The notes under the pieces are model-generated. The model did not search any database. It saw only the letters and a list, made by a program, of their open reading frames with translations, and was not told the origin of the DNA. Made by a program: the position numbers and the translations under genes. Below are positions 2,787-19,548 of a stretch of 33,362 nucleotides of DNA, piece by piece. Positions within the stretch are counted from its first letter, which is position 1, and each line of letters opens with the position of its first letter. The stretch is from an uncultured Gammaproteobacteria bacterium (GTDB lineage Bacteria > Pseudomonadota > Gammaproteobacteria > Arenicellales > JAANXG01): positions 1 to 33,362 of the forward strand of contig CAMYKW010000068.1 of NCBI GenBank assembly GCA_947259175.1. The letters are read 5' to 3'.

Positions 2787-3074
2787 CCAGCGACTATTCT
2801 TGTTGCTTACTGCAAAGAGCCGCACAGTTATTCTATGAAGACACAGCGTAAACTCGAACATGGATCGCCTGGAATAGTCGCTGGGCGACTATTCTTGTTG
2901 CGCACCGCAAAGAGCCGTACAGTTATTCTATGAAGACACAGCGTAAACTCGAACATGGATCGCCTGGAATAGTCGCTGGGCGACTATTCTTGTTGCGCAC
3001 TGCAAAGAGCCGTACAGTTATTCTATGAAGACACAGCGTAAACTCGAACGTGGCTTGCCTGGAATAGTCGCTGG
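2787..3074. repeat. tandem array, three units of a 95-bp palindrome-ended repeat
   Basis: The array starts with CCAGCGACTATTC and ends with its exact reverse complement GAATAGTCGCTGG. Right ends recur at 2872-2884, 2967-2979 and 3062-3074, giving a period of exactly 95 bp. At the two inner junctions the ends are fused as GAATAGTCGC-TGG-GCGACTATTC, so neighbouring units share bases of one palindrome. Units differ at only a few positions. A frame on the minus strand reads through each unit, but it is a by-product of the repeat. The array fills most of the 463-bp gap between two divergent genes. Bases 3075-3185 hold only a small palindrome (GTGCAA-TG-TTGCAC, 3083-3096). Confidence 0.9.
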
Positions 3075-3185
3075 ACAACGTGGTGCAATGTTGCACGCTC
3101 GTGCCGGCGGCCGGCTCAAGCAGTATGCGACCGTCGATCCGCAACGCGCTGAACCGCAACTAACATCTCTCAGGTAAATGTTAAG

Positions 3186-3794
3186 ATGAAAACCCGCATC
3201 CGCGACAAATGGCGCAACCGGAACCGCCAGGGTTCACTGGAGGACAACGCCACCTCCCTCGCCTACGGGATCTGGCAGATCGCTCTGGCGGCGGCGAAAA
3301 ACCTCCATATCGAGGATTTCGACTATGAGTCGGACGAACAACGCACCGCGGTCATCGCGGAATATCTGATGTTCCTGGTACACGTCGCCGACCGGCTTGC
3401 GTTCGCTCAGATGGATCAGGAATCACGCGCGCGGTTTGTCACCACATTGGCGCAACACACGGCGCGTCATTACCAACGCAATGTCGCGGACATCGTGGGC
3501 CACGGGGATTACCGCACCGGCTATATCGAGAAATTGAACGCGCGCGCGGCTGAATACGCGGAAACGCCGTTTACCGACGGGGATCCCGGTTACGAGACGC
3601 GCCGTTGTCTGGGGGAGAAGATTCAGCAACTGATGGGCATGACCCAGACCAACCGCTGGGTCATTCAGCAGGTAATCGACCTGGACTCGCCGGAAGCGGT
3701 CAAACATCTCAAGACCGCCATGGACAACCTGTTCGGCACATCCAATATCGATCCGCGGCCGGCCTCCGAGGAAGCGGTGATCGGCGCGGACTAG
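3186..3794 (+). CDS. conserved hypothetical, mainly helical protein, 202 aa
   Basis: I do not recognise the family. The product is cytosolic by appearance, with no signal peptide or membrane segment, and is predicted from its sequence pattern to be almost all alpha-helical. The first 20 residues are strongly basic (KTRIRDKWRNRNRQ). A cysteine at C142 follows a charged stretch. Downstream, 5 bp away and convergent, is the small gene ending at 3800. The gene follows the tandem 95-bp repeat array by about 110 bp, so any promoter must lie in or just after that array. Codon use is like that of the neighbouring chromosomal genes. Confidence 0.75.
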   Translation: MKTRIRDKWRNRNRQGSLEDNATSLAYGIWQIALAAAKNLHIEDFDYESDEQRTAVIAEYLMFLVHVADRLAFAQMDQESRARFVTTLAQHTARHYQRNVADIVGHGDYRTGYIEKLNARAAEYAETPFTDGDPGYETRRCLGEKIQQLMGMTQTNRWVIQQVIDLDSPEAVKHLKTAMDNLFGTSNIDPRPASEEAVIGAD

Positions 3795-4294: not shown

Positions 4295-5452
4295 ATGGCC
4301 ACTGCCACATCGACCGAACTGCGCGCGGAAGACGCCTTGAAGCTCAATGTGTTGATCGCCAATGCGCAAGCGATTCGCATTGACGAGGGGACCTTGTGCG
4401 TGCGCGGCATGACCGGCGGCGACGACGCCACCGTGGTCCTGAACCCCAACTGTGCGCCGGAAAAATACCTGCGTTTGGTGCGTGAAATGCTCTCCACCAG
4501 CGCACTGGGTTCACCCCGCGGATATCCGGTGTATTTGCGCCGCTGGACGCGCATGGGAGAAATGAAAAACACCCGGCTCGAGCCGCTGCTGATGCTCGCC
4601 GAGGACGAGGCGGTAATCGCGGCGGCCCGTGCCGGCGGCCTGACCGACGATCTGGCGGCGCGCATCTGGTGGGCGCTGCCTACCGCCGAGGTGGCGCGCT
4701 ACCTGCTCGAACATCCCGGTGTCGTGCGCGGTTCGATGGGGCCGGTGCTGGCCGATTACCTGGCGGAATACCTGCCGTTCGAGGAGTCCCCCGGCGCGTT
4801 GATCGAAACCGTGCGTTTGATCCTGCAAGCGGAGCTGATCAGCGACGCCAAACGCCGCGAAATCTGGCGACGCGGAGGCCGGAAGAGTCACTACTACTTG
4901 GGATTCCTGCGGTCATTACCCGACGCGCTGCCGGACCCGAGGCCGGCGCGCGCGGATCACCCCGCCGTCGCCCGCGGGTTGGCGCCGGTCGCCGCCGAGC
5001 CACTGGCGGCGCAACTGATCCGGGTGCTGTCCGCGCCCGGTCAGACTTATATGAGCACCTGCGCACGGGTGCTGCGCAAGCCCATCGATCAGGATGTGGT
5101 GGTCGAGTTGCTGGACGCGATGCACGACTACTTTGCCCCGCTGCGCACCGAGGATCGCGAGTTCGGCGATCCCGATGCGTTGCAACACCACGTCGCCGCC
5201 ATGGTCCGCGCCGCTGATTCGCGGTGCGCGCCGCTTCGCCGGCGGCTGCCGGGGATCGCAGCCGACCTCGAGGCGATGCTGTTCCTGGCGTACAGCGGCG
5301 AGCCGCTGGTGCGGCCGATCTTCGCGCGCACCGACGCGGTGGGGTCGGTAATGCGCAACAAAATCGCCCCCGTCACCCAGGCCTTGATGGCCGCCATCAA
5401 CCGGCTGTTGGGAGGGTCGTCGACATCAGGGACAACTTATCCTAATCGATAA
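4295..5452 (+). CDS. dsrS: DsrS-like sulfur-oxidation protein
   Basis: The 385-residue product matches my memory of DsrS, the soluble protein encoded in or near dsr operons of phototrophic and chemotrophic sulfur oxidisers. Typical stretches are LNPNC near residue 50, the segment GSPRGYPVYLRRWTRMG (residues 72-88), PVLADYLAEYLPFEE and the region LIRVLSAPGQ. The role of DsrS is not mechanistically settled; in Allochromatium it has been linked to regulation of dsr expression or sulfur oxidation. No dsrAB is in this window. The start ATG has no clear ribosome site. The 3' end overlaps the convergent cupin gene by 16 bp. Further sulfur-relay genes (dsrE2, tusA) lie 3 kb away. Confidence 0.7.
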   Translation: MATATSTELRAEDALKLNVLIANAQAIRIDEGTLCVRGMTGGDDATVVLNPNCAPEKYLRLVREMLSTSALGSPRGYPVYLRRWTRMGEMKNTRLEPLLMLAEDEAVIAAARAGGLTDDLAARIWWALPTAEVARYLLEHPGVVRGSMGPVLADYLAEYLPFEESPGALIETVRLILQAELISDAKRREIWRRGGRKSHYYLGFLRSLPDALPDPRPARADHPAVARGLAPVAAEPLAAQLIRVLSAPGQTYMSTCARVLRKPIDQDVVVELLDAMHDYFAPLRTEDREFGDPDALQHHVAAMVRAADSRCAPLRRRLPGIAADLEAMLFLAYSGEPLVRPIFARTDAVGSVMRNKIAPVTQALMAAINRLLGGSSTSGTTYPNR

Positions 5453-7561: not shown

Positions 7562-7780
7562 TCAATCGTCTTCCGAAGCTTGACGCTCGCGGCGGGTTTT
7601 CAGCAAACTCTCGGCCTCACTGCGGTCCTTGGCGAAGATGATCTTGACGCTGTCGGCATCGTTCCCGCTCTGCTCCGCTCGTATCCGCCGCGCTTCGCCG
7701 CGGGCGTCCCGGTAATGGACGAATTCGTCGACATAGGTTAAGAATCGCTGCGGAGAGATGCGGTAGATAAAATAAGGCAT
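7562..7780 (-). CDS. small conserved protein, 72 aa
   Basis: The product starts MPYFIYRISPQRFLTYVDEF and ends with a charged, helical tail (EAESLLKTRRERQASEDD). It is likely soluble. I recognise the general look of a conserved short protein found next to the Cys-rich gene in related bacteria, but no function. It is the first gene of the 7780-6827 minus-strand unit and is divergent from the 99-aa gene at 7863, with 82 bp between starts that must contain both promoters. Confidence 0.65.
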   Translation of the reverse strand: MPYFIYRISPQRFLTYVDEFVHYRDARGEARRIRAEQSGNDADSVKIIFAKDRSEAESLLKTRRERQASEDD

Positions 7781-7862
7781 CGAGGACCTTTATTCGCTGA
7801 ATCTTGCCTGGCCGGGGCGCATGCCGCGGCTCAAACATCAATACTACACCCGACATCCTATC

Positions 7863-8162
7863 ATGAATGAAAATCAGTCCTTATCCAAAGAAGAACGAAT
7901 CTTAGCGGCGATGCAAAAGGTGTTGACCCGGGTTATCAAGGAAACCGCCACACCGCCGGGTCTCAAACACCCGCTCTCCCAGGCGTGTATCGATGACATG
8001 CGAGCGTGCCTGGTGCTGATCTCCGCGCGAACACAGGAACTCGCTAAGAACGCCGGGCGCCCCAGCAGCGCCCGCCCCCGCTACATCGACGAACCGGTAT
8101 CGCGGGGCCCGGCCTCGGTGCCCATCGACCAGATAAAACGCAAGCGCAAAGACCCCGGGTGA
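7863..8162 (+). CDS. small conserved hypothetical protein, 99 aa
   Basis: The start at 7863 (MNENQSLSKEERILAAMQKVL) is preferred over an in-frame ATG 14 codons earlier, because the extension (MPRLKHQYYTRHPI) looks non-coding. The protein is mostly helical with a core of 'VIKETATPPGLKHPLSQACIDDMRACL' type and a disordered basic tail rich in Pro, Arg and Lys. Function unknown. It is divergent from the 72-aa gene and convergent with dsrE2, whose stop lies 88 bp away. Confidence 0.65.
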   Translation: MNENQSLSKEERILAAMQKVLTRVIKETATPPGLKHPLSQACIDDMRACLVLISARTQELAKNAGRPSSARPRYIDEPVSRGPASVPIDQIKRKRKDPG

Positions 8163-8250
8163 GATTCACGGTGTCGCCGTGAACCACCGGGGTTTGATAA
8201 CCGAGACTGTGCGCTTCTACGGTCGCGGGCGCCAGGCAAGCGCCCGGAGC

Positions 8251-8730
8251 TTATATGAACAGAGTGACGTCGGCGTCGCCTGCGAATTCGAAGAAGGTCG
8301 CGGCGCCACCCAGCTCGATATTGTCCATCAATTCTTCACGTTTTATATCGAACAGATCGATGGTCATCTGACAACCCACGAGCCGGACCTCGGCTTCGAC
8401 ACACAGGTCGCGCAACTCTTCAATGGAGGCCACACCCTTGGCCTTGATTTTCTGTTTCATCATCGTGGTCATCATGCCTTCCATGCCGGGAATGGTGGTG
8501 CCCAGCACCGGAAACCACTTATTCATACCCATCGGCATCGGCATGCCCGGATTACCGAGCGGACTCACTTTCAGGTCCAGCTTCGTTTTAATCAGCTGCA
8601 GCCCGTAAAACGTAAAAAAGATGCACGTCTGGTACCCCAACGCGGAAGCCGTCGAGGCAAGGATGAACGGCGGATACGCCCAATCCAGGGTACCCTTGGT
8701 GGCGATAATCGCCAATTTCTTGTCAGCCAT
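8251..8730 (-). CDS. dsrE2: DsrE2-type sulfurtransferase-like protein
   Basis: The 159-residue protein belongs to the DsrE/DsrF/DrsH-like group, DsrE2 branch. Typical marks are MADKKLAIIATKGTLDWAYPP at the start split from a hydrophobic 'ASTASALGYQTCIFFTFYGL', a Met-rich loop (PGMPMPMGMNKW) and the conserved Cys in VGCQMT (C120). C110 and C36 are further candidates for sulfur binding. DsrE2 is thought to be part of sulfur-relay systems with TusA and rhodanese, moving persulfide sulfur toward sHdr or rDsr. It follows tusA by 72 bp on the same strand and is probably co-transcribed. No rhodanese gene is adjacent. Confidence 0.85.
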   Translation of the reverse strand: MADKKLAIIATKGTLDWAYPPFILASTASALGYQTCIFFTFYGLQLIKTKLDLKVSPLGNPGMPMPMGMNKWFPVLGTTIPGMEGMMTTMMKQKIKAKGVASIEELRDLCVEAEVRLVGCQMTIDLFDIKREELMDNIELGGAATFFEFAGDADVTLFI

Positions 8731-8802
8731 AATCTCTATGCCCTTGAAAAAAAGTTGGTCGTGTATTGGGCCTCAATGTCGAGGCCGCAACCCACCGCGC
8801 GG

Positions 8803-16789: not shown

Positions 16790-16797
16790 CGTTTTCC
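16790..16797. repeat. target-site duplication, left
   Basis: CGTTTTCC abuts the left end of the transposon. The right partner at 19541-19548 is CGTTTTTC, with one mismatch, consistent with an 8-bp duplication and one later mutation. Confidence 0.6.
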
Positions 16798-16858
16798 GGT
16801 AGTGGCTCACTTTGAAAATAGGGTTGAAACAAAGCCTTAAAGATGCCACTTTAATGGC

Positions 16859-17107
16859 ATGTTTAAGCGGTTAAGCAAACCCAAACGAGAACGAGACACC
16901 AACCTGTTAGCGAAACAGATTGTCGATCTCTCCACTGGCCAAGCTAAGGACAAAGATCCGGATGAAGGGAAAGACCCTGCGGCCGTAGCTTTGGGCCGAA
17001 AAGGTGGACTTGTTGGCGGCAAAGCACGTGCAGAAAGACTATCCAAAAAGAAGCGTGTTGAAATAGCAAAGAAGGCGGCGAAGGCCAGATGGAATAAGAA
17101 ATCCTAG
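16859..17107 (+). CDS. small basic KGG-motif protein (transposon cargo)
   Basis: The 82-residue protein is very rich in Lys, Arg and Ala. Its second half reads 'ALGRKGGLVGGKARAERLSKKKRVEIAKKAAKARW', where GRKGG and GGKARA are the KGG-type motif also seen in stress-induced proteins and in many small mobile-element proteins. The AKKAAKARW ending resembles histone H1-like DNA-binding tails. Nucleic-acid binding is a reasonable inference, but no function is established for this type. TTA codons occur twice within the first 20 codons, unlike host genes. It begins 41 bp inside the left transposon end and converges on the 71-aa gene, 4 bp apart. Confidence 0.7.
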   Translation: MFKRLSKPKRERDTNLLAKQIVDLSTGQAKDKDPDEGKDPAAVALGRKGGLVGGKARAERLSKKKRVEIAKKAAKARWNKKS

Positions 17108-17111
17108 TGAG

Positions 17112-17327
17112 TTATTGGTTTGCCCATTGTTCTATTTGGGCTATAACTCTCTCAATATAAGTATCGTCACAATCTTTGAGAGAAATAGTAAATACTTGAC
17201 CAGTAGGAGACCGCCATACTTGGGCGTCTCCTGGTAAGGATTTCAGGAAAGAACATCCTTTAGTAGTAAGTAACTGCCTTACTTGTCCCGACGTAAGAAC
17301 TCGACCAGTCCATGGTCTATCCGCCAC
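17112..17327 (-). CDS. small protein, weakly HicA-like (transposon cargo)
   Basis: The 71-residue product reads LTSGQVRQLLTTKGCSFLKS, then GDAQVWRSPTGQVFTISL and KDCDDTYIERVIAQIEQW. The order helix, KG-turn, three strands, helix resembles the small alpha-beta fold of HicA-type toxins, but the catalytic histidine of the usual GSHH segment is missing. The likeness is therefore weak and structural only. The start is GTG at 17327, two bases after the stop of the upstream frameshifted gene, which points to translational coupling. Such coupled pairs behind a palindromic operator are typical of toxin-antitoxin loci, but I cannot show that this is one. Confidence 0.55.
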   Translation of the reverse strand: MADRPWTGRVLTSGQVRQLLTTKGCSFLKSLPGDAQVWRSPTGQVFTISLKDCDDTYIERVIAQIEQWANQ

Positions 17328-17329
17328 GG

Positions 17330-17556
17330 TTAAGTAACCACTTGGGCGGTATCAATCTTCCTGACAATAAAGGCATGTGGAACATGTTCGACCCCTGACC
17401 ATCTTTCATGGGTAGTTTTGGGCTCAGGAACAACTTCTACATTCATGCCGTTATTATGAAGAAACAGCTCTTTGATTGCGGGTATTAAGGACTCCAATAA
17501 ATGCGGTTATTCTTATTTTCTACTCGCAACCTCACAAAAATATTATCTTTCGACAT
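17330..17556 (-). pseudogene. frameshifted small gene upstream of the 71-aa gene
   Basis: From ATG at 17556, with GGGAG nine bases before it, the frame reads MSKDNIFVRLRVENKNNR and then hits a stop after 'IYWSP'. In the frame shifted by one base, coding continues as HLLESLIPAIKELFLHNNG, then MNVEVVPEPKTTHERWSGVEHVPH and AFIVRKIDTAQVVT, with its TAA two bases before the next gene's GTG. Joined, the product would be about 75 residues. The break lies near 17500. It could be a recent mutation, a sequencing error or programmed frameshifting; no classic slippery heptamer is visible. Function unknown; the position is that of an antitoxin or partner gene. Confidence 0.6.
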
Positions 17557-17581
17557 ATGCCACGCTCCCGCTTAGCAGCAC

Positions 17582-17595
17582 CACAATATATTGTG
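17582..17595 (-). promoter_or_regulatory. palindromic operator candidate CACAATATATTGTG
   Basis: A perfect 14-bp palindrome lies 26-39 bases upstream of the ATG of the minus-strand gene pair. A TTGACA box on the minus strand occurs at 17634-17639, too far for an exact pairing with an obvious -10, although TAGATA follows 19 bases later. The position is right for autoregulation of the pair by one of its products. Confidence 0.5.
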
Positions 17596-17827
17596 ATAGG
17601 TTAGTAATCTATCTACTAGTTATTCTGTTTTCTTGTCAATAGAGCGAACCTTACAAAATGTAATTATTTTGAGTTCGTCTCTTACAGCCAATCTAAAGAG
17701 CTGATAAGCAATTGATAATACTCAATATCGGGCTGTGCTGATGGAAAACTAAGAAACCCTACATTGCAGTGTCTCTGCATTTCACTCCTTCTCGGTTGCA
17801 ACTCCTCTTTGATTCCCCTAGAATGAA

Positions 17828-17857
17828 GTAAGGCCAGCTTTTTAGGGCTGGCCTTAC
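17828..17857. other. strong hairpin upstream of the tRNA gene
   Basis: GTAAGGCCAGC pairs perfectly with GCTGGCCTTAC around an eight-base T-rich loop, and CAAAAAA follows on the plus strand. There is no T-run after the stem on either strand, so it is not a clean intrinsic terminator. The remaining bases between 17600 and 17898 contain no supported gene. Confidence 0.55.
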
Positions 17858-17898
17858 CAAAAAATAGTTCGTTTTCTTCTGTAGCACGTACTAATTAT

Positions 17899-17990
17899 GG
17901 AGAGGTGGCCGAGTGGCTTATGGCAGCGGACTTAAAATCCGTCGAGGGTACTGGTACTACCCTCCGTGGGTTCGAATCCCACCCTCTCCG
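17899..17990 (+). tRNA. class II tRNA, anticodon UAA (Leu), Ser-like body
   Basis: All arms fold. The acceptor is GGAGAGG with CCTCTCC. The D stem is GCC with GGC (17908-17910 and 17922-17924). The anticodon stem is GCGGA with TCCGT around CTTAAAA, giving anticodon TAA at 17933-17935. A long variable arm has a 7-bp stem (GAGGGTA with TACCCTC). The T arm is GTGGG-TTCGAAT-CCCAC. The anticodon predicts tRNA-Leu(UUA). However, the discriminator at 17990 is G, not the A73 required by bacterial LeuRS, and the acceptor and GTGGCCGAGTGG segment are those of tRNA-Ser. The following bases read CACC, so CCA is not encoded intact (GCCA appears to have lost one C). It lies inside the transposon. Confidence 0.88.
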
Positions 17991-18056
17991 CACCTTAAAA
18001 GGGCATCGAGAAAGGCGATCTGAACGGCCTAAAGTAGCCTACCTCTCTGTCTATTT

Positions 18057-18626
18057 ATGTATCGACCGGGTCAAAAAATGAACCAATCAACAGTCAATTT
18101 AGAGAAACTGCGCCTCTTTGTCAAGGGCCAGAGGGACTTCCATATAGAGCGGGCAGAAATATACTCACACAATAATTTCCGTAAAAACAAACACCTAGAA
18201 ACCGCAAAAGAGTTCGACGAGCTTCTTGAATACCTAGAGTCGGCTCACACACGCCCTCTCCCCAAAGGACAGCTTGTCCTCGCACTTACTCCAGACGATC
18301 TCGATGGATTGCCAGAGGAGCTAGTGTCCGAACTTAGTATTTCTAGTGCCGATAAAGCGGAGTTCGTGGTTCTGTCGGTCATGGAGGAACACGGCGGAAT
18401 AATGTCCCTTGATCAAATTATGGTGCACTACTATCGCGCCACAGGTGAAATCCCGAGACGGACCGCGATGACCAACCGCGTTTACCGCCTGGGACAAAAA
18501 AAACTAATAAAGAATGTTCCAGGAAAGAAGGGGGTTTATTGTCTTGCATCAATTTCTGACGCAACCCTTGCGGAACTTACGGGAGAAAATATAAAAGGAG
18601 AGAGCCAAACTAAACAAAATGCTTGA
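18057..18626 (+). CDS. winged-helix-like cargo protein, 189 aa
   Basis: The N-terminal half is helical and charged (QRDFHIERAEIYSHNNFRKNKHLETAKEF). The C-terminal half, from about residue 100, has a winged-helix look: a first helix 'AEFVVLSVMEEHGGIMSLDQIM', then 'RTAMTNRVYRLGQKKLIKNV' as recognition helix and a short hairpin 'GKKGVYCLA'. DNA binding is therefore plausible. I do not recognise the family. The ATG at 18057 or the one at 18078 may be used; neither has a strong ribosome site. The stop codon overlaps the -35 box of the transposase promoter, so the two genes are tightly packed. Base composition is lower in GC than the host genes. Confidence 0.65.
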   Translation: MYRPGQKMNQSTVNLEKLRLFVKGQRDFHIERAEIYSHNNFRKNKHLETAKEFDELLEYLESAHTRPLPKGQLVLALTPDDLDGLPEELVSELSISSADKAEFVVLSVMEEHGGIMSLDQIMVHYYRATGEIPRRTAMTNRVYRLGQKKLIKNVPGKKGVYCLASISDATLAELTGENIKGESQTKQNA

Positions 18627-18651
18627 CTCACCTTAAGCGATCATGCATAAT
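18623..18651 (+). promoter_or_regulatory. sigma70-type promoter of the transposase
   Basis: TTGACT at 18623-18628 and CATAAT at 18646-18651 are separated by exactly 17 bp. The expected transcription start falls at about 18658, one base before the preferred transposase ATG, which would make a nearly leaderless mRNA. The -35 box includes the stop codon of the preceding gene. Confidence 0.7.
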
Positions 18652-18658
18652 GTTCAGT

Positions 18659-19531
18659 ATGAACCGGCTGGACATCAAGAAACGGGCACAAATCCTGCAT
18701 TTGTTGGTGGAGGGAAATAGCTTGAGAGCCACGGCCCGAATTGCCGATGTATCCAGAAACACCGTAGATAAACTGCTACAAGACGTTGGATCGGCGTGCT
18801 TAGACTACCAGGACAAGCATTTACGCAACCTTCCCTGCAAACGAGTCCAGTGCGACGAAATCTGGTCCTTCGTGTATTCCAAAGACAAGAATGTGCCTGA
18901 GGAACTTAAGGGCGTATTTGGTTATGGCGACGTTTGGACTTGGACTGCGATCTGCGCGGATTCCAAGATTGTCTCTTGCTGGCACGTCGGGCCGCGTGAT
19001 GCGTATTCAGCCAAAGTGTTGATGGAAGATTTGGCGGGGCGTCTTGCAAGCCGTGTACAACTTACCACAGACGGTCTAAGAGTCTATGTAGACGCGGTAG
19101 AAGGTGCTTTCGGCGCGGATATAGACTTCGCGCAATTAATCAAACTTTACGGTCCAGCCCCCGAACAAGAAAAACGCTATAGCCCGGCGGCATGCAATGG
19201 CGTTCAGAGAAAGAAGATCAATGGCAACCCTAAAAAACGCGATATCTCCACTAGTTACGTTGAACGTCAAAATCTCACGATGAGGATGAGCATGCGTCGA
19301 TTTACTCGCTTAACCAATGCGTTCTCAAAAAAGTTGGAAAATCACATGCACGCTATTTCGCTGCATTACATGTATTACAATTTCGGGCGGATTCATCAGA
19401 CCTTGCGAGTCACGCCAGCGATGGAGGCTGGCGTATCGGATCATGTCTGGACGCTAGAGGAAATTGCTGGACTAGTGAAAGATGAACTGCCCAAGAAACG
19501 TGGCCCATATAAAAAGCGAATTTCAAAGTGA
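18659..19531 (+). CDS. IS1-like DDE transposase
   Basis: The 290-residue protein starts MNRLDIKKRAQILHLLVEGNSLRAT with a helix-turn-helix (VSRNTVDKLLQDVG). A DDE catalytic core follows: D66 in VQCDEIW, D138 in TTDGLRVY and E202 in SYVERQNLTMRM. The last segment, SLHYMYYNFGRIHQTLRVTPAMEAG, is typical of the long IS1-related transposases often annotated as 'IS1 family' (ISMhu11-like). It recognises the terminal repeats and catalyses cut-and-paste or copy-type transposition. No frameshift is needed, unlike classic IS1. In-frame TTG and ATG codons at 18623 and 18650 are less likely starts. The coding region ends inside the right terminal repeat. Confidence 0.88.
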   Translation: MNRLDIKKRAQILHLLVEGNSLRATARIADVSRNTVDKLLQDVGSACLDYQDKHLRNLPCKRVQCDEIWSFVYSKDKNVPEELKGVFGYGDVWTWTAICADSKIVSCWHVGPRDAYSAKVLMEDLAGRLASRVQLTTDGLRVYVDAVEGAFGADIDFAQLIKLYGPAPEQEKRYSPAACNGVQRKKINGNPKKRDISTSYVERQNLTMRMSMRRFTRLTNAFSKKLENHMHAISLHYMYYNFGRIHQTLRVTPAMEAGVSDHVWTLEEIAGLVKDELPKKRGPYKKRISK

Positions 19532-19540
19532 GCCACTACC

Positions 19541-19548
19541 CGTTTTTC
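19541..19548. repeat. target-site duplication, right
   Basis: CGTTTTTC abuts the right end of the transposon and matches the left flank CGTTTTCC at seven of eight bases. Confidence 0.6.

Follow-up and report, generated by a model that had tools for sequence, protein, structure and literature searches.

A tRNA gene with the body of a serine tRNA and an anticodon reading the leucine codon UUA is carried, in conserved form, by a transposon of an uncultured gammaproteobacterium, and as far as sequence comparisons go this can be regarded as established. The tRNA (Table 1) is the only one that ARAGORN found in the window, i.e., the whole stretch of 33,362 nucleotides analyzed here (positions 17899–17991, plus strand, anticodon TAA). 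We consider it moderately likely that this gene is a selected mobile missense tRNA, which travels as a transposon passenger, is probably charged with serine and would insert this amino acid at some UUA codons.

Table 1. Features of the tRNA-bearing transposon and its insertion site (window positions).
Feature	Position	Strand	Evidence or remark
Class II tRNA, serine body, G73	17899..17990	+	ARAGORN, Rfam, isotype models, folding
Anticodon UAA of the tRNA (reads UUA)	17933-17935	+	Sequence
IS1-type transposon, 2743 bp, tRNA inside	16798..19540	+	Inverted repeats, near-perfect target duplication, four related contigs without insert
Left terminal inverted repeat GGTAGTGGCTCACTTTGAAA	16798..16817	+	
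Right terminal inverted repeat	19521..19540	-	Perfect complement of left repeat
Target-site duplication, left copy CGTTTTCC	16790..16797		7/8 with right copy
Target-site duplication, right copy CGTTTTTC	19541..19548		7/8 with left copy
82-aa basic protein, KARW-type C-terminal motif	16859..17107	+	Similar left-end gene in several other family elements
71-aa ORF	17112..17327	-	Conserved in congener's copy (70 aa)
Hairpin upstream of tRNA	17829..17858		29/30 bases kept in congener's copy
189-aa protein	18057..18626	+	75% identical in congener's copy; C-terminus judged winged-helix-like by eye only
IS1-type transposase, 302 aa, single ORF	18623..19531	+	Pfam PF03400 (24.8 bits) and HTH

ARAGORN labels the tRNA as Leu, a label that is derived from the anticodon only. 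The Rfam tRNA model matched over exactly positions 17899–17990 (59.8 bits, E-value 1.1e-10) with every arm present in the alignment, and together with ARAGORN and a direct reading of the sequence this bears out the coordinates and letters given in the original prediction. The minimum-energy fold (-40.6 kcal/mol, z-score -3.29, with 0 of 200 shuffled sequences equally stable) comprises the acceptor, anticodon, variable and T arms as well as a shifted D arm. The acceptor stem (GGAGAGG/CCTCTCC) forms part of a 7/5 acceptor branch, the variable arm is long, the anticodon loop (CTTAAAA) has kept U33, and no CCA is encoded, G73 being followed by CAC. By its G15-C48-G73 combination and its D arm the tRNA is serine-like: G73 occurred in 16 of the 17 serine-anticodon tRNAs compared, and A15-U48-A73 in 13 of the 20 leucine-anticodon tRNAs. 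The seven exceptions among the latter were the window tRNA itself, its copy in a congener (G004), three similar tRNAs from viral contigs, one tRNA with C73 and one with A73. In leucine identity A73 is described as crucial, and G73 in its place can switch leucine to serine (PMC9976931).

To score isotypes, we built covariance models, one from 14 serine tRNAs and the other from 12 leucine tRNAs gathered in the present analysis. The serine model omits three of 17 rows (a U73 form, an odd one from a viral tRNA array and a near-duplicate) and the leucine model eight of 20, namely the seven without A15-U48-A73, including the window tRNA, and one canonical viral-array row. The window tRNA, which lies outside the training sets, scored 90.5 bits on the serine model versus 42.0 bits on the leucine model, so that the comparison of isotype models suggested in the original prediction came out for serine. 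The host tRNAs scored are themselves members of the training sets; four of five leucine tRNAs reached 89.3–94.6 bits on the leucine and 40.2–53.9 bits on the serine model, and two serine tRNAs 87.0 and 95.8 bits on the serine and 38.0 and 41.7 bits on the leucine model. Taken together, the window tRNA has the G73, the G15-C48 pair, the long variable arm and the isotype score of a serine tRNA and departs from one in its UAA anticodon, whereas of the leucine features it has the anticodon and lacks both A73 and a leucine isotype score. The serine body, the UAA anticodon and G73, all of which had been predicted, are thus upheld by the sequence and its diagnostic positions. The anticodon arm (GCGGACTTAAAATCCGT), which had been called leucine-like, is not specifically so, as it matches that of the host tRNA-Ser(CGA) (GCGGACTCGAAATCCGT) in all but two anticodon bases, and a Leu/Ser chimera, likewise proposed before, was rejected for the same reason.

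The host genome (4.18 Mb, 121 contigs) contains leucine tRNAs with the anticodons UAA, CAA, UAG, CAG and GAG and serine tRNAs with UGA, CGA, GGA and GCU; its canonical tRNA-Leu(UAA) has A73 and lies on a different contig from the window. UUA accounts for 14 of 587 leucine codons in 14 long window ORFs outside the transposon and for 7 of 57 in three ORFs of the element. This difference and the UAA anticodon would suit an ordinary extra tRNA-Leu, charged by LeuRS and helping to translate the UUA-richer genes of the element. Such a role is nevertheless very improbable in view of G73, G15-C48, the serine-like D arm, the isotype scores and the fact that the host already possesses a canonical tRNA-Leu(UAA).

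A full recoding of UUA, which had also been raised in the original prediction, appears unlikely from the sequence data, since UUA still means leucine. Besides the presence of the canonical tRNA-Leu(UAA), this is indicated by the window transposase, whose four UUA codons fall on alignment columns dominated by alanine (28 of 59), valine (34), leucine (55) and leucine (59), i.e., on leucine or mixed columns and never on serine columns, serine occurring in at most 5 of 59 sequences. Recoding confined to the transposon was considered as well and rejected: neither the UUA codons in the transposases of the two elements with UAA tRNAs nor the AGY codons in those of two elements with Arg-like tRNAs (see below) ever occupy columns dominated by the other residue, with serine at UUA in at most 5 and arginine at AGY in at most 6 of 59 sequences among the residues listed. 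As UUA still reads as leucine, any insertion of serine would have to be partial.

The transposon surrounding the tRNA has terminal inverted repeats matching at 20 of 20 positions. Its insertion site is empty in four related contigs (L035, L036, L037, and L039), in which the flanking genes, encoding a DUF5658 protein and an ABC-3 permease, are ~30–100 bp apart. A neighboring znuA-like gene is closest to genes of uncultured gammaproteobacterial assemblies. The transposase, the inverted repeats and the target duplication, which in this type is expected to span 8–9 bp, are those of an IS1-type transposon; the Pfam score of the transposase exceeds the PF03400 cut-off of 24.1 by a thin margin, and its plasmid relatives are annotated as IS1 family transposases. 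The predicted location on mobile DNA is supported by the repeats, the near-perfect duplication, the relatives without insert and a second copy elsewhere. A remnant of an integrase-element attachment site was rejected, since the insert is bounded by transposon inverted repeats and the tRNA is located 1.1 kb into the element.

As for the remaining genes of the element, no Pfam match was obtained for the 82-aa protein, which is weakly similar to phrog_2384, or for the 71-aa ORF, and positions 17331–17600 hold what is left of a 59-aa ORF whose frame is open in the congener's element. The 189-aa protein yielded no match in Pfam, PHROGs or PADLOC and no relatives in the viral contigs searched, and its single-sequence fold prediction had a mean pLDDT of 34. 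Partial relatives of it were found in two phages and one plasmid; two of these three had no tRNA in the stretch examined, and the third has a tRNA-Met and a tRNA-Arg ~1 kb away. The tRNA pattern was present in two of 109 genomes of the order, including the host's own, and the 189-aa protein in the same two, whereas a slightly looser tRNA pattern was found in the own genome only among 369 genomes sampled from the class, a sample to which the congener does not belong.

The second copy of the transposon, in the congener, is 2,999 bp long, has the same gene order and sits at a different site, BLAST of the 18 kb compared having found matches only inside the element; its target duplication is perfect (8/8, CTGGACTG). 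Its transposase contains one in-frame stop, and its tRNA is intact, has the same UAA anticodon and encodes CCA. The two tRNAs are identical at 84 of 92 positions and the rest of the elements at 1873 of 2584 aligned positions (72.5%), a difference with a binomial P of 7e-6 if sites are assumed to be independent; no other 92-nt stretch exceeds 85% identity. Of the eight differences between the tRNAs, five lie in loops, one replaces a G-U by an A-U pair and two are mutually compensatory changes of the T stem, so that every stem change keeps pairing. Conservation of the hairpin 40 nt upstream is on a par with that of the tRNA.

The same pattern of conservation recurs in another tRNA-bearing pair of the family, from genomes G711 (locus L413) and G892 of the same genus, whose tRNAs are identical at 76 of 76 positions and whose remaining sequence is identical at 1298 of 1610 (P 8e-8), the G892 element and its transposase being truncated. 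Both comparisons speak against a decaying passenger, i.e., a captured tRNA-Ser that has drifted and lost its function, as do the retained anticodon and the preserved pairing. The lack of an encoded CCA in the window copy and the broken parts of these elements (the 59-aa ORF in the window, the stop in the G004 transposase and the truncated G892 transposase) would be in line with decay, to which we assign only a small probability.

To place the element within its family, relatives of the transposase were collected from viral contigs, i.e., contigs classed as viral by IMG/VR (79 loci kept), from plasmids (19 records, four examined as regions), from relatives in the order and family (8 of 60 genomes; regions examined for the congener and three further genomes) and from a phylum sample (46 of 398 genomes; 15 regions examined), and 109 stretches from loci with the transposon repeat sequence were added. 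A uniform scan of 212 sources gave 119 transposase matches, 75 of them with both repeats and 65 distinct by their end sequences. For the repeats, up to three mismatches to a loose consensus were tolerated (at most two at both ends in 52 of the 65), and a target duplication was likewise present in 52. ARAGORN identified a tRNA inside the repeats in four of the 65 elements, namely those of the window, G004, viral contig L242 and G711, so that the tRNA has to be seen as optional cargo. These four elements represent three lineages, in each of which anticodon and body disagree, and all four tRNAs lie upstream of the transposase and on its strand. When these 65 elements were scanned separately by their T arms, under partly stricter conditions, only the window and G004 were recovered. 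In the order of G711 the transposase occurs in 54 of 398 genomes, and among 30 loci kept a tRNA was found at that of G711 only, to which the region from G892 adds a second tRNA-bearing locus. The tRNA search matched in seven of 75 genomes of this genus, the five others being Thr or Arg tRNAs with fitting anticodons. On viral contig L229 (positions 1–2989), a dense array of many divergent tRNAs ends right at a transposon of the family.

The L242 and L413 tRNAs have the anticodons ACU and GCU, respectively, which correspond to serine AGY codons, and are not serine tRNAs by the usual rule, since they do not possess a long variable arm. C33, which is found in the L413 tRNA, should impair decoding; in the L242 tRNA the anticodon stem contains a U-U mismatch, and the fold is no better than those of shuffled sequences. 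Both tRNAs have A20, C35 and U36, bases given as determinants of arginine identity in bacteria (PMC9976931), and share the D loop GGATA, among the tRNAs compared, with seven arginine tRNAs and one Gly and one Thr call. Nearest-neighbor scores are slightly in favor of arginine for L242 and near even between the identities for L413. We infer from these features that both may have arginine identity.

When Arg-like bodies combined with an RCU anticodon were searched for by a pattern scan, 27 stretches were obtained, which together with L413 amount to 25 distinct cores in 29 places; ARAGORN recognizes 27. Their anticodon loops are CTACTAA (9), CCGCTAA (8) and CTGCTAA (8), and 8 of the 25 distinct tRNAs have C33. 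Class I tRNAs of this Arg-like kind, with the anticodon GCU or ACU (L374, L413, L487–L512), are found repeatedly on viral contigs, often with no other tRNA on the same piece. At L508 the tRNA (Rfam, 66 bits) lies directly upstream of a transposase of the same type, with no clear inverted repeats in the piece examined, and at L506 it follows just after a fragment of such a transposase. A large ORF beside the ACU tRNA of L494 (positions 7593–8756) has a start resembling the small left-end protein of the transposons, and L512 falls into the same BLAST group as this ORF. Proteins beside the tRNAs of L413 (positions 4526–5026) and L512 (positions 3047–3535) end in DDEIPF and DDDVPF, which resemble the acidic tip of single-strand-binding protein.

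Serine-body UAA tRNAs with G73 were also detected by pattern scans on the viral contigs L134, L136/L137 and L147. Of 33 stretches from this part of the work, most are not tRNAs according to ARAGORN. Five further viral contigs (L153, L160, L166, L167, and L170) share one identical UAA tRNA with a serine-like D arm and C73. On the viral contigs L133 and L135, the 5′ half of a tRNA-Ser with the loop CTTAAAA is present, where ARAGORN sees no tRNA, in addition to a complete tRNA-Ser(UGA).

The transposon family often carries TA-like or defense-like genes. There are 115 cargo ORFs of at least 140 aa, and among the 109 scanned the leading Pfam families were HTH_3 (19), Peptidase_M78 (18), P63C (6), SDH_protease (5) and SocA (4), with Fic and HipA found once each. 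PADLOC matched RmrA (up to 16 per model; RmrA is part of RosmerTA), PD-Lambda-2_B (15), CapP (12), CapH (8) and RmrT (2); these counts overlap and do not prove defense, because the same HTH-M78 proteins match several models. An Abi_2 protein is encoded downstream of the tRNA in the L242 element. Such cargo would be compatible with a non-translational RNA, i.e., a decoy, an antitoxin or a mimic of the target of an anticodon nuclease or another tRNA enzyme, in which the odd anticodon serves that purpose. The conservation of the upstream hairpin (29/30) and the C33 in 8 of 25 Arg-like tRNAs, which argues against decoding, point in the same direction. On the other hand, Pfam recognized no nuclease domain in the ORFs of the window element, the window tRNA keeps the canonical features of a working tRNA including U33, and BLAST across the tRNA loci revealed no shared partner protein beyond the small left-end protein and the transposase. 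Proteins of a coiled-coil and winged-helix type, as judged by eye, adjoin the tRNAs of L413, L508, L512, L134 and perhaps the window; since BLAST joins none of the three compared and similar-looking proteins also occur in elements in which no tRNA was found (L186, L208, and L408), we do not claim a common partner. A role as decoy or antitoxin is regarded as possible though doubtful; it is the main rival of the reading that we favor, a low-level missense agent tied to defense-like cargo.

Several known systems resemble this tRNA in part. The tRNA-Ser(CAG) of the Candida CUG clade, which has G33, also combines a serine body, a leucine anticodon and G73; it has replaced the leucine reader genome-wide, whereas the window tRNA coexists with a normal tRNA-Leu(UAA) and keeps U33. 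Bacterial allo-tRNAs (Mukai et al. 2017, as covered in PMC7609411) likewise unite serine identity with a non-serine anticodon; when tested in E. coli, two from Silvibacterium bohemicum inserted serine at the leucine codons CUC and UUA (PMC7609411). They have 8/4 or 9/3 acceptor branches (PMC7609411), unlike the window tRNA with its 7/5 branch and long variable arm, a distinction that the original prediction had drawn correctly. One allo-tRNA pseudogene overlaps a transposon-related ORF (PMC7609411); the window tRNA differs in lying inside a transposon with defined ends. The nev-tRNAs of nematodes are conserved class II tRNAs with the anticodon of another amino acid as well, and differ in being eukaryotic and leucine-accepting in vitro; they can be mischarged, and no mistranslation was detectable (PMC4300185). 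This precedent cautions against taking the conservation of a misfit tRNA as a sign of mistranslation. IS1-family elements with passengers share the IS1-type transposase, the inverted repeats, the 8-bp duplications and the cargo with the window element. A literature search for such elements revealed no tRNA passenger apparent from the records alone, and searches combining mistranslation with transposons or allo-tRNA with transposase found no paper. Phage-borne tRNAs are mobile as well, and serine-body UAA and Arg-like AGY readers occur on viral contigs; in the usual phage tRNAs the body matches the anticodon, and they supplement decoding.

In the missense reading, the anticodon of a tRNA-Ser would have been changed to read the leucine codon UUA, and the tRNA would be carried along as passenger of the IS1-type transposon. 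By the identity rules, the host SerRS would charge it and LeuRS largely would not; serine charging follows from these rules and from the allo-tRNA precedent (PMC7609411) by analogy. The charged tRNA would then compete with the normal tRNA-Leu(UAA), placing serine at a fraction of UUA codons. As UUA is rare in the host, the cost of missense at home would be low. We speculate that the tRNA may act as a mild missense agent or as a stress or defense factor, not as a decoder, because the family carries TA- or defense-like genes and mismatched tRNAs in two other lineages.

Some observations count against the missense reading. CCA is encoded in the congener's tRNA and absent in that of the window, the one promoter-like match upstream of the window tRNA on the same strand is no better than expected by chance, and a tRNA is present in just 4 of the 65 elements. 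The C33 of many Arg-like tRNAs and the stem mismatch and poor fold of L242 likewise weigh against it. Furthermore, serine at UUA in the window transposase should hurt the element, since two of these codons fall on leucine columns. An extension of the missense reading to the whole group, which we deem rather unlikely, is that IS1-type transposons and some phages carry missense tRNAs (serine at UUA, arginine at AGY) as RNA cargo that favors codons rare in a GC-rich host and common in AT-rich invaders, mistranslation then hitting the invader or tripping a stress response.

If charged with serine, the window tRNA would be a natural, mobile tRNA of canonical shape that violates the code in a bacterium whose code itself is standard. 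The mismatched tRNAs in related transposons hint at mobile tampering with protein synthesis, and with three lineages among 65 elements, all mismatched in anticodon and body, the question is directly testable. If the missense reading is true, transposons would spread missense tRNAs under selection and may provide a test bed for how mistranslation is tolerated or used.
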